Assembly: GCA_019636235.1 (NCBI GenBank)
Contig: JAHBXW010000006.1
Coordinates: forward strand, 1-64,000
Reading direction: 5' to 3'
From: Planctomyces sp.
Lineage (GTDB): Bacteria; Planctomycetota; Planctomycetia; Planctomycetales; Planctomycetaceae
Length of the DNA: 64,000 nt
The translations under genes and the position numbers were made by a program. A model generated the notes under the pieces. It did not search any database. It was given only the letters and a program-made list of their open reading frames with translations, and was not told the DNA's origin. Below are positions 14,738 to 17,614 of this stretch, in pieces (the first letter of the stretch is position 1; every line of letters begins with the position of its first letter).

Positions 14738-14770
14738 AAAAAACCCTGGGACTTCCGGGAAGTCTCAGGG
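14738..14770 (-). terminator. leuA attenuator terminator (segments 3:4)
   Basis: On the minus strand CCCTGAGACTT (14760-14770) and AAGTCCCAGGG (14744-14754) form an 11-bp stem with one A-C mismatch and a CCCGG loop, followed directly by six T (14738-14743). This is a textbook intrinsic terminator lying 75 bases upstream of the leuA start codon and 37 bases past the leader-peptide stop codon, the position expected for an attenuator. Confidence 0.85.
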
Positions 14771-14832
14771 TGGCGATTTCAGTTCGGACGAATGCCGAGC
14801 GCCGGCCTAAGACCCCCGTTGCGGAGGAAGGC
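14744..14832 (-). promoter_or_regulatory. leuA attenuation region with mutually exclusive hairpins
   Basis: Four segments can be read on the minus strand. Segment 1, GCCTTCCTCC (14823-14832), lies in the last Leu/Pro codons of the leader peptide. Segment 2, GGGGGTCTTAGG (14806-14817), contains its stop codon. Segment 3, CCTGAGACTTCC (14758-14769). Segment 4, GGAAGTCCCAGGG (14744-14756). Segment 2 can pair with all 12 bases of segment 3 (three G-U wobbles), giving an antiterminator. Segments 3 and 4 give the terminator. Segment 1 can pair with GGGGG of segment 2 plus an outer GCCT/AGGC. A ribosome stalled at Leu codons would cover segment 1 and favour 2:3; one reaching the stop codon would cover 2 and permit 3:4. 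Confidence 0.78.
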
Positions 14833-14869
14833 TCAGAAGCAGCGGCAGGAGGAGGATCGAGGAATTCAT
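14807..14869 (-). CDS. leuA leader peptide, Leu-rich
   Basis: A 20-residue ORF, ATG at 14869 and TAG at 14807-14809, beginning MNSSILLLPLLLSLPP. Seven of 20 codons are Leu, six of them within seven codons (CTC CTC CTG CCG CTG CTT CTG), followed by another CTT. It lies between a good promoter and the intrinsic terminator upstream of leuA. Its only likely role is as a sensor: Leu-tRNA shortage stalls the ribosome and alters folding of the downstream RNA, as in classical leu operons. No clear Shine-Dalgarno sequence precedes the ATG; the predicted transcript start is only about 14 bases upstream, so initiation on a very short leader is implied. Confidence 0.8.
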   Translation of the reverse strand: MNSSILLLPLLLSLPPQRGS

Positions 14870-14889
14870 GGCTGGCGGAGAATGGAAAA

Positions 14890-14918
14890 AACCTAGCGGC
14901 AGGACACGGGACTGTCAA
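14890..14918 (-). promoter_or_regulatory. leuA leader promoter
   Basis: Minus-strand TTGACA (14913-14918, perfect consensus) and TAGGTT (14890-14895) are separated by 17 bp. The leader-peptide ATG is 21 bases downstream of the -10. The next gene on the strand upstream (14995-15819) ends 77 bases before, so this promoter serves leuA alone. Confidence 0.75.
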
Positions 14919-14994: not shown

Positions 14995-15819
14995 TCAACC
15001 ATGGCGGGCCGCCAGCGCCGCCCGCATCGCCGCGATGCTTTCCCGTGCGATCCGGTCCGCCCCCGGCGAGTAATCGAACACCTCGACCGACACCCAGCCG
15101 CTGTACGCCACGTCGCCCAGCGCCTGAAAGATCGGAACGAAGTCCGTGTCCCCCATCCCGGGGCCCAGCAGGTTGCTGTCGTTCGCATGGAAATGCCGCG
15201 TGACGCCCGCGAACTCTCGAATCAGCTCGGGCAGCGGCGTCCCCTCGCTGAGCATCGCCTTGACGTCCTGGTGCAGCGCGAACGCCTGATGGTTCAGACG
15301 CTGAATGATTTCCACCGCATCGCTGCAGCGATTGATGAAGTTGGTTTCTTTCGGAGTCAGCGGTTCGATGCAGAGCGTGACTCCCCGGCTGGCCAGCCGG
15401 TCGGCGCAGCCGGCGAAGACCTCGACGGCGCGATCGGCGCCTTCATCGCGGCTTAACCCCGGACGCAGATTCCGCTGCGCCGGAGACCCGAACACCATCA
15501 GGGTTCCCCCCAGGTCCGCGCACAGGTCGCCGAGCTGGGCCAGGTAGTCAGCCGTCGCTCGTCGGACGGCCGGGTCGTCGGACGTGAGATGAAATCCGGT
15601 CGTCTTCGCCAGCAGCCAGTGCAGGCCGATGATTTCGAGCCCCGCGTCCTCGGCCTCCCTGCGGATGGCGGCCCGTTCGGTCGCGACCAGATCGACGGGG
15701 CTGCCCGCGAACGAAAAGGGGGCGATTTCCACGCCTGCATAGCCCGCGTCGGCGATCGCCCGGCACTGCTCCCGCCAGGGGCGATCTTCATACAGCTCCT
15801 GGCAGATGGCGAACTTCAT
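14995..15819 (-). CDS. Sugar phosphate isomerase/epimerase family TIM-barrel protein
   Basis: A 274-residue AP-endonuclease-2-type TIM barrel (xylose isomerase-like). It begins MKFAICQELYEDRPW; the frame upstream is discarded as Pro/Arg-rich. Likely metal and catalytic residues lie in CIEPLTPKETNFI (Glu), ALHQDVKAM (Asp), HFHANDSN (His/Asp) and VSVEVFDY (Glu at the last strand). No signal peptide, so it is cytoplasmic. Planctomycetes carry many such enzymes and the substrate is not predictable. It ends 77 bases upstream of the leuA promoter and is probably transcribed independently. Confidence 0.88.
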   Translation of the reverse strand: MKFAICQELYEDRPWREQCRAIADAGYAGVEIAPFSFAGSPVDLVATERAAIRREAEDAGLEIIGLHWLLAKTTGFHLTSDDPAVRRATADYLAQLGDLCADLGGTLMVFGSPAQRNLRPGLSRDEGADRAVEVFAGCADRLASRGVTLCIEPLTPKETNFINRCSDAVEIIQRLNHQAFALHQDVKAMLSEGTPLPELIREFAGVTRHFHANDSNLLGPGMGDTDFVPIFQALGDVAYSGWVSVEVFDYSPGADRIARESIAAMRAALAARHG

Positions 15820-16216: not shown

Positions 16217-17614
16217 ATGAAACGCTTCTGTCTTGCCCCCCTGATGGCGGCCATGCTCCTGGCGGCCAGCGGGGTGGAAGCCGAAGCCGGACTGTTCTGC
16301 GGAATGGGCCGGTTCCGGTGCTGTCCCAAGGAGGCCTGCGGGCCCGCTGGCGATTACTGCCAGGGGCGGGTGTGCTCCAGCCCGGGCTACAAGACGGTCC
16401 AGGAGACCGTCTGGTGCACGGAGGAATACGTTGAGTGCTGCACGGTGTACGACACGTGCGTCGAGAAGGTGCCGGTGACCCGGTCCCGCACGGTGTACGA
16501 CACGTGCTACCGGGACGAGTGCTACACGGTCTGCAAGCCGCGGTACCACACGTGCTACCGGGACTGCTGCTACACGGTCAAGGTGCCGCACTACCAGACG
16601 TGCTACCGCACGGTGTGCTGCACGGTCCGCAAGCCGGTGTACAACACCTGCTACCGGGACGTGTGCTACACGGTCTGCAAGCCGGTGTACCAGACCTGCT
16701 ATCGGGACTGCTGCTACACGGTCAAGAAGCCGTGCTACCAGACGACGTACCGGACCGTGAACTGCACGCAGTACAAGACGGAGTACTGTACGACGTACAA
16801 GGACGTGTGCTACACGGTCTGCAAGCCGGTCACCGAGACGAAGGTCGTCTGCGAGACGATCAACGAGTGGAAGACCGTCAAGGAATACGTCCCCGGCCCG
16901 GTCGTCAAGCGGAAGGTGCCGAAGTGCCCGAAGCTGTGCTGGGATCCGAACAACTGCTGCACGACGGTTGAGGACCCGGGCTGCTGCGCCGACGAGTGCT
17001 GCCCGTCGCCCGGCCACTGGGTGTGCCGGAAGGTCTGCTGCCCGCGGACCGTCCAGCGCGAAGTCTGCTGCACGCGGATGGTTCCGGAAGTCAAGCACTG
17101 CAAGGTGCCCTGCACGACCTGCCGGGTCGTTCCGGTCTGCGTTCAGAAGCAGATTCCCTGCACGACCTGCACCTGGACCTGCGAGACGCGGCACGTCCGC
17201 GTCCCGTACACGACCTGCACCATGGTGCGGGAGTGCCGGACCAAGAAGGTCCCCTACACGACCTGCACCTGGACCTGCGAGACCGTCAGCCGCCAGGTTC
17301 CCTATACGACCTGCCACTGGACCTGCGAGACCCGCGTCAAGAAGGTCCCCTACACCACATGCACGATGGAGCAGCAGGTCTGCACCCGCCGCGTGCCGTA
17401 CTGCGTCCCGCGGACCGTCTGCGAGACCTGCTTCGTGACCAAGACGCACTGCGTTCCGCGCACCGTGCAGGTCAAGAAGTGCCGGTCGGTGCCGAAGGTC
17501 GTCTGCCGGCAGGTCCCCTGCGACCCGCCGTGCTGCGATCCCTGCGTGCCGATCACCTGCGCCGCTCCGGTCGATCCCGGCTGTGCGGCGCCGTGCGACG
17601 GCTGCGTCAACTGA
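16217..17614 (+). CDS. Cys-rich YTV-repeat protein, probable cell-envelope structural protein
   Basis: A 465-residue exported protein with a signal peptide (residues 1-24, MKRFCLAPLMAAMLLAASG). The mature chain is exceptionally rich in Cys, Tyr, Thr and Val. First array, about residues 75-200: units resembling TCYRDxCYTVxKPxYQ. A middle segment (about 205-290) breaks the pattern. Second array, about 300-395: units resembling VPYTTCTWTCETR. This is the YTV family (Pfam YTV), known from Rhodopirellula baltica and proposed to be disulphide-cross-linked cell-wall protein. Planctomycete-specific. Strong ribosome-binding site (GAGAGAGGA) and a strong terminator at 17745 suggest high expression. Domain positions are approximate. 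Confidence 0.9.
   Translation: MKRFCLAPLMAAMLLAASGVEAEAGLFCGMGRFRCCPKEACGPAGDYCQGRVCSSPGYKTVQETVWCTEEYVECCTVYDTCVEKVPVTRSRTVYDTCYRDECYTVCKPRYHTCYRDCCYTVKVPHYQTCYRTVCCTVRKPVYNTCYRDVCYTVCKPVYQTCYRDCCYTVKKPCYQTTYRTVNCTQYKTEYCTTYKDVCYTVCKPVTETKVVCETINEWKTVKEYVPGPVVKRKVPKCPKLCWDPNNCCTTVEDPGCCADECCPSPGHWVCRKVCCPRTVQREVCCTRMVPEVKHCKVPCTTCRVVPVCVQKQIPCTTCTWTCETRHVRVPYTTCTMVRECRTKKVPYTTCTWTCETVSRQVPYTTCHWTCETRVKKVPYTTCTMEQQVCTRRVPYCVPRTVCETCFVTKTHCVPRTVQVKKCRSVPKVVCRQVPCDPPCCDPCVPITCAAPVDPGCAAPCDGCVN

Follow-up and report, generated by a model that had tools for sequence, protein, structure and literature searches.

A leucine-rich leader with a probable switchable terminator precedes leuA in many Planctomycetota

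The planctomycete leuA gene studied here is preceded by a short Leu-rich leader and a switchable stop signal, which were confirmed in a 64,000-nucleotide stretch of Planctomyces sp. DNA (the window). The element is very probably a ribosome-mediated, classical transcription attenuator of leuA. Sequence and comparison together establish the leader ORF, its in-frame Leu enrichment, a CUA bias among relatives and the form of the promoter. They also establish the 2:3 and 3:4 helices, the order of the parts, and the presence of the element in a large share of the class and in some members of the phylum beyond it.

All parts of the element claimed by the initial annotation were re-read on the minus strand of the window (Table 1). 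In order, they are a promoter, an ORF of 20 codons of which seven encode Leu, an antiterminator, and a terminator followed by six T. TTGACA-N16-18-TANNNT occurs once on the two strands of the 64 kb, as the promoter of the leuA leader, and its −10 hexamer (TAGGTT) is imperfect. The transcript is predicted to start at about 14883, which would give the leader a 5′ UTR of about 14 nt; no purine-rich Shine-Dalgarno-like stretch is visible in these nucleotides. The Leu codons, 7 of the 20, are CTC CTC CTG, CTG CTT CTG, and CTT. The Leu-rich ORF is unremarkable by itself (binomial p 0.004, among many ORFs), whereas the joint arrangement is striking, the strict rule defined below being satisfied by 2 of 2790 shuffles of 279 upstream regions. 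The T6 end of the terminator lies 74 nt from the start of leuA, which stands alone in the window, the next large ORF being on the opposite strand. Upstream of the leader is a neighbour gene on the same strand, whose ORF ends at 14995. Elsewhere in the window, a Cys-rich ORF of 465 aa (16217-17614, plus strand) contains repeated 'VPYTTCTWTCETR'-like units.

Table 1. Features of the leuA leader region in the window and of the sister leaders at other loci
Feature	Position	Strand	Description or basis
Promoter TTGACA-17-TAGGTT	14918-14890	−	TTGACA 14918-14913, 17-nt spacer, TAGGTT 14895-14890; consensus reading
Leader peptide ORF	14869-14807	−	ATG...TAG, 20 codons plus stop, MNSSILLLPLLLSLPPQRGS
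Region 1 (with region 2, protector hairpin GCCT-CCTCCG/CGGGGG-AGGC)	14832-14822	−	Fold of the window leader
Region 2, antiterminator arm, containing the leader stop codon (14809-14807)	14817-14806	−	Pairs with 14769-14758
Spacer between regions 2 and 3, able to form a helper hairpin (GGCG...CGCC with CTCGG...CCGA)	14805-14771	−	Nascent-RNA fold before region 4
Region 3, common to antiterminator and terminator	14769-14758	−	Fold and double-sided changes
Intrinsic terminator	14770-14738	−	Hairpin 14770-14744, 11 pairs around one A-C mismatch; T6 14743-14738
leuA, 2-isopropylmalate synthase, 526 aa	14663-13083, ATG 14663	−	NCBIfam NF002086 755 bits, TIGR00973 709 bits, both above cut-off
Citramalate synthase leader: Ile-rich ORF with antiterminator and terminator	G000:C16 upstream of 48839 (L003:1-1500); L313, L320, L325, L331, L362-L390		
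Phe/Trp/Tyr leader and terminator before DAHP synthase	G000:C12:447392-447476 (L312); L317, L319, L322, L324, L332-L361		

The antiterminator joins 14817-14806 to 14769-14758 by 12 consecutive pairs, three of which are G-U. When the upstream 111 nt were dinucleotide-shuffled and paired with the same terminator arm, a run as long arose in 4 of 20000 cases. The leader stop codon was found inside region 2, where the initial annotation had placed it. The competing arm, region 1, had been assigned to the Leu-codon zone; as a small correction, it overlaps only the last Leu codon (14830-14828) and begins after the main cluster of Leu codons, immediately downstream of it. Its partner in the fold is 14818-14805. 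Folds of the window leader were computed for the RNA expected at chosen ribosome positions. The ribosome-free RNA formed the 1:2 hairpin and the terminator. With a ribosome held at the third Leu codon and region 4 not yet transcribed, the 12-pair 2:3 helix formed around the helper hairpin of the spacer, which brings the antiterminator arms together. A ribosome at the stop codon left the terminator alone. The stalled, finished and ribosome-free states agree with the attenuation model. When the whole leader was available, the minimum-energy fold kept the terminator even with a stalled ribosome; the terminator is thus thermodynamically favoured once region 4 is present, so the switch must be kinetic. 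A putative protector hairpin 1:2 formed in the folds of the window leader and of the leader of one Gemmata-like genome.

Translation of the leader, the kinetics of the switch, termination in the cell and the leucine response are the steps that we infer. RNA polymerase would start near 14883 and a ribosome would start on the 20-codon leader. When leucyl-tRNA is scarce, the ribosome would stall in the Leu run and mask region 1; region 2 would then be free as region 3 emerges, the 2:3 antiterminator would form, and transcription would continue into leuA. When leucyl-tRNA is plentiful, the ribosome would arrive at the UAG inside region 2 and mask that region, region 3 would pair with region 4, and transcription would end in the run of T, 74 nt short of the gene. 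If the ribosome is absent, the 1:2 hairpin would form, giving termination by default.

Upstream regions of leuA were compared among relatives, as the initial annotation had proposed. A strict rule called for a Leu-enriched ORF followed, 5-100 nt beyond its stop, by a stable hairpin and a T run; a relaxed rule tolerated interrupted T tracts. The named loci, 2-isopropylmalate synthase genes gathered by name from public genomes, were the best 80 of 284 relatives, from which L066 and L071 were dropped for having no upstream DNA; 67 are planctomycete by title (L035 being titled 'bacterium' only) and 11 are not. The 53 family entries, which overlap in species with the named loci, consisted of the window, the 44 best-scoring loci and 8 more; L085 was left out as it shares a contig with L004, and L002 and L003 are paralogues. 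Outside the family, 100 class members were fetched of 108 with a leuA match, and outside the class all 48 phylum members matching at E 1e-120, among 147 genomes searched in all, were used. Two incomplete loci, L021 and L127, were scored as misses. Several MAG titles (for example Candidatus Kuenenia) are apparently misassigned and were not relied on.

The Leu-rich ORF and the hairpins have been kept in relatives. Of the 67 named loci 64 passed the relaxed rule, as did 50 of the 53 family entries. In the class beyond the family 72 of 100 members passed and 28 failed, and in the phylum beyond the class 10 of 48 passed and 38 failed. Among the controls, none of the 11 loci from non-planctomycetes passed, and 2 of 279 reverse strands and 27 of 1395 shuffles did. 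Under the strict rule the corresponding counts were 53/67, 43/53, 50/100 and 4/48, with 0/11 non-planctomycetes, 1/279 reverse strands and 2/2790 shuffles. The leuA loci L010 and L041 yielded no leader. The Leu class at p 0.02 was nearly confined to leuA among the genes compared, appearing before 0 of 30 DAHP synthase, 1 of 30 citramalate synthase (cimA), 0 of 20 ilvB and 0 of 20 trpE genes. No homologue of the window's upstream neighbour gene was present upstream of leuA in any of the 67 named loci (within 1500 nt, tblastn E 1e-3), which indicates that the element belongs with leuA. One in-frame TGA was seen within the leuA match of three genomes of one genus, G099, G180 and G132 (L117, L119 and L120).

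Removal of identical leaders from the strict matches left 134 distinct leaders. A promoter of the same form as that of the window leader is located upstream of 100 of them, versus 7 of 131 control positions. Most of the named loci listed have 5-9 T in a row behind the hairpin. In seven leuA upstream regions (L009, L012, L051, L052, L056, L060 and L090) only 6-7 nt separate the end of the −10 from the ATG of the leader, a hint that the leader peptide is leaderless in some genera. As a general rule this was rejected; only 13 of the 100 promoter-bearing leaders start 4-12 nt after the −10, a count in which some start codons were chosen by script and are possibly wrong, and the distance in the window is 20.

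Compensatory changes, which the initial annotation had named as a check, were found in both stems. The alignment comprised 34 sequences including the window, taken from strict matches of the named loci, shorter than 130 nt and at most 88% alike. In these sequences, whose selection from strict matches makes pair counts lean towards structure, pairing stands at 82.5% in the 2:3 helix and at 93.2% in the 3:4 helix, and both sides have changed at 7 and at 10 of their 12 pairs, respectively. For the 2:3 helix, none of 500 shuffles equalled the number of paired cells, the number of cells with double changes or the covariation score; its pairs with double changes were matched by 42 of 500 and its further pair types by 67 of 500. 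For the 3:4 helix, 0 of 500 shuffles succeeded on all five measures. Sliding by one column lowered pairing to 55-63% (2:3) and 55-57% (3:4). In a swap test of the 134 distinct leaders, the 2:3 energy was −12.7 kcal/mol for cognate arms versus −10.8 for swapped ones (0 of 20000 permutations). The test was significant in family f1, the named loci and f5, and not significant in families f2 (8), f3 (13) and f11 (6). In the 134 leaders, the stop codon is where pairing to region 3 is strongest, despite the use of different stops (TAG in 117, TGA in 43 and TAA in 12 of 172 distinct leaders) and varying peptide lengths. The antiterminator and the terminator are mutually exclusive, with double-sided changes in both helices among the 34 selected sequences and the swap test agreeing. 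Judged by sequence, the leuA attenuator is real, complete and widely recurring, and the interpretation offered by the initial annotation is supported: none of the outcomes by which, in its terms, relatives could have refuted it was seen.

A covariance model was built from the 34 leaders, window included, and matches them by construction. Of 40 genomes, 34 contain at least one sequence that it matches at E 1 or better. The best match lay just upstream of leuA in 22 of 25 family genomes by hand count; the exceptions were G016 (at citramalate synthase), G021 (at DAHP synthase) and G017 (unplaced). Beyond the family, the model found nothing in 6 of the 15 class members, and it missed the leader before leuA in the Gemmata-like genome G072. 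About 7 of 20 stretches around weak matches look like unrelated hairpins. In G007, 36 near-identical matches of equal score, all to the hairpin part of the model, probably represent a dispersed hairpin repeat.

Matches of the model upstream of genes other than leuA led to further leaders at citramalate synthase (TIGR00977, 634 bits) and DAHP synthase (PRK08673 and TIGR01361, over cut-off), for each of which the 30 best-scoring loci were taken from 69 genomes searched. Ile-rich leaders such as MPVSNIVCVSSIIIICEITGSL precede citramalate synthase in 18 of 30 loci, where the aromatic rule was passed by none and the Leu rule by one. Phe/Trp/Tyr-rich leaders such as MRTAYYFWFYFAPAGRGAGGGL precede DAHP synthase in 24 of 30 loci, with none passing the Ile or the Leu rule, and Phe, Trp and Tyr are all present in 23 of these 24. 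Reverse strands gave 0 of 30 in each set, and shuffles 3 of 600 for citramalate synthase and 1 of 600 for DAHP synthase. After removal of near-duplicates, the 2:3 swap test gave 0 of 20000 for both the 18 citramalate synthase and the 19 DAHP synthase sequences. In the genome of the window, the DAHP synthase leader MNRAGWYRFTFWYPTGISGPGPGQTV passes (p 0.009), and the citramalate synthase leader MPATRRQFSINDLRRPFAARRTIVIIGPPPLLRR, which is followed by a terminator, misses the 0.02 limit (p 0.4 for Ile plus Val, 0.065 for Ile alone). The pairing peak of the DAHP synthase leaders is 18-30 nt before the stop; their stop-codon geometry is thus unlike that of the leuA leaders. No leader of any class was found before trpE in 20 genomes. 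Before ilvB, also in 20 genomes, the Ile, Leu and Ile+Val+Leu classes gave no match and the Val class gave one (L394); one Trp and one aromatic match were regarded as chance.

Codon use in the leaders was compared with that of the gene behind them. At 53 named loci, CUA makes up 85 of the 340 Leu codons in the leaders (25%) versus 9 of the 1834 in the leuA genes themselves (0.5%; p 6e-62), and UUG shows the opposite trend (21/340 versus 378/1834). The window leader itself has no CUA among its seven Leu codons. Changes between leader pairs at least 80% alike fell at codon positions 1, 2 and 3 in 65, 122 and 122 cases, a weak test. Of 221 codon changes involving one base, 100 left the amino acid unchanged, versus about 30% expected; this is mildly favourable and likewise weak, and the pairs are not independent. 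In excerpts of the theoretical work on control codons, CUA is named as the codon best suited to leu control in E. coli, with UUG or UUA predicted to be less sensitive (Elf and Ehrenberg, PMC1183508), and a Salmonella experiment summarised there, together with the theory, marks CUA as the sensitive leu control codon. The planctomycete leaders also fit this theory, outside the enterobacteria.

The hairpins and the switch geometry are by themselves no proof of leader translation, and the terminator might instead be controlled by a protein or small molecule (a leucine riboswitch or an RNA-binding protein), the Leu-rich ORF being a by-product of the pairing sequences. The weakness of the codon-position test, in which positions 2 and 3 changed equally, is on the side of this explanation. 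Against it, the enriched synonym is CUA, which is rare in leuA, and amino-acid content alone would not explain its enrichment. The Leu fraction of the 134 leaders, themselves selected for in-frame Leu, is 0.353 in frame versus 0.076 and 0.070 in the other frames. Moreover, the residues match the gene product (Leu for leuA, Ile for citramalate synthase, and Phe, Trp and Tyr for DAHP synthase), the pairing peak is at the stop codon although different stops are used, and no Rfam family matches the leader. Control of this kind is rated very improbable.

The position of the hairpin between two same-strand genes, the upstream one with its ORF ending at 14995, would also suit a terminator of that gene or a shared terminator unconnected with leuA control. 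This is extremely improbable, as 64 of the 67 named loci retain the leader and none has a homologue of the upstream gene within the 1500 nt examined, a promoter and an ORF recur between that gene and the hairpin, and the 5′ arm of the hairpin covaries with the leader stop region. Equally hard to credit is attenuation at the level of translation, in which the leader would govern access to the leuA start rather than termination. The leader of the Gemmata-like genome, with its hairpin near the leuA start and its interrupted T tract, points that way, but the T6 terminator of the window ends 74 nt short of leuA, and T runs of 5-9 stand behind the hairpin in most named loci listed.

The enterobacterial leu operon attenuator (leuL) has a short Leu-rich leader, competing pairings and a terminator before leuA, and the planctomycete element resembles it in all three. 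It differs in having no Rfam match and another leader peptide, and in the window leuA stands alone. Rfam, including its T-box families and the Leu leader family (presumably RF00512), had no match in the window; a search of the leader region to E 10 returned five weak matches far below the gathering scores. At gathering score, the loci of 20 relatives matched only tRNAs, the three tRNA genes on the minus strand upstream of leuA at L051:207-741, a Fuerstiella locus. Use of CUA control codons is a further likeness between the planctomycete leaders and the enterobacterial attenuator as treated in excerpts of PMC1183508.

Excerpts of a survey of Actinobacteria describe a LEU element before leuA and argue that it is not classical attenuation (Seliverstov 2005, PMC1262725). 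A run of Leu codons before leuA is common to both phyla, but the base stem of the LEU pseudoknot (PMC1262725) pairs the Leu codons with the leuA Shine-Dalgarno sequence, in contrast to the terminator of the window, 74 nt from the leuA start. The same excerpts predict classical attenuators before leuS in two Streptomyces, which share the leader peptide, antiterminator and terminator with the element described here and differ in preceding a leucyl-tRNA synthetase gene in another phylum. They also mention actinobacterial ilvB leaders, which carry codons for Ile, Val and Leu and act in a way that is not clear. The actinobacterial precedent that the initial annotation called established is weak for leuA. 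A leucine-rich attenuator peptide is already reported in Staphylococcus aureus (PMC5794164); it resembles the planctomycete leader in being leucine-rich and controlling branched-chain synthesis and differs in its host, a Firmicute.

In excerpts of their paper, Naville and Gautheret (2010, PMC2965389) write that, until they found one in Bacillus, they knew of leader-peptide systems in Proteobacteria and Actinobacteria and in no other group; the words 'planctomycet' and 'leuA' are absent from that text. Excerpts of Korolev (2016, PMC4833913) count short leader genes in many phyla including Planctomycetes, with no leuA among them. Among the open-access full-text matches listed, no description of such leaders in planctomycetes was found, in agreement with the initial annotation, which knew of no Leu attenuator in the phylum. 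The mechanism itself is already known; the host phylum and the aromatic and isoleucine relatives are apparently not described in the open-access papers among those matches.

The leuA leaders of Isosphaera pallida ATCC 43644 (G066) and Singulisphaera acidiphila DSM 18658 (G173), both named by identity of 6000 plasmid bases, pass the relaxed rule. Squalene epoxidase (PF08491), taken as a Gemmata marker, was found in 0 of 36 in f2, the family holding these two genera. Oxidosqualene cyclase (TIGR03463) scored above cut-off in 6 of 18 genomes, all in f3/g60, with the top score in G072, which may therefore be regarded as Gemmata-like. The leuA leader of G072 (L203) passes the relaxed rule; of the 8 members of its genus that were fetched, 3 pass and 5 fail. 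Its RNA can form the 1:2, 2:3 (fold −35.6 kcal/mol) and 3:4 alternatives; the antiterminator arm lies within the ORF, the T tract is interrupted, and little distance separates the hairpin from the leuA start. For Gemmata obscuriglobus, a spatial segregation of transcription from translation has been proposed (Gottshall 2014, as cited in excerpts of PMC5394234 and PMC5287468). With a leuA leader in Isosphaera, Singulisphaera and a Gemmata-like genome, tight coupling would operate there at leuA.

These leaders carry classical attenuation into Planctomycetota, over a deep span of the phylum and in amino-acid-matched versions at three pathways. It seems likely that they make up an attenuation regulon at pathway entry enzymes, with Leu controlling leuA, Ile controlling citramalate synthase, and a single attenuator sensing Phe, Trp and Tyr at DAHP synthase. 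This regulon would probably be ancestral to the class and would involve tight transcription-translation coupling at leuA even in cells with proposed segregation. Because attenuation needs a ribosome close behind the polymerase, the planctomycete leaders offer a simple, locus-level test of transcription-translation coupling. If the regulon reading is true, coupling would take place at leuA even where segregation of transcription and translation was proposed.
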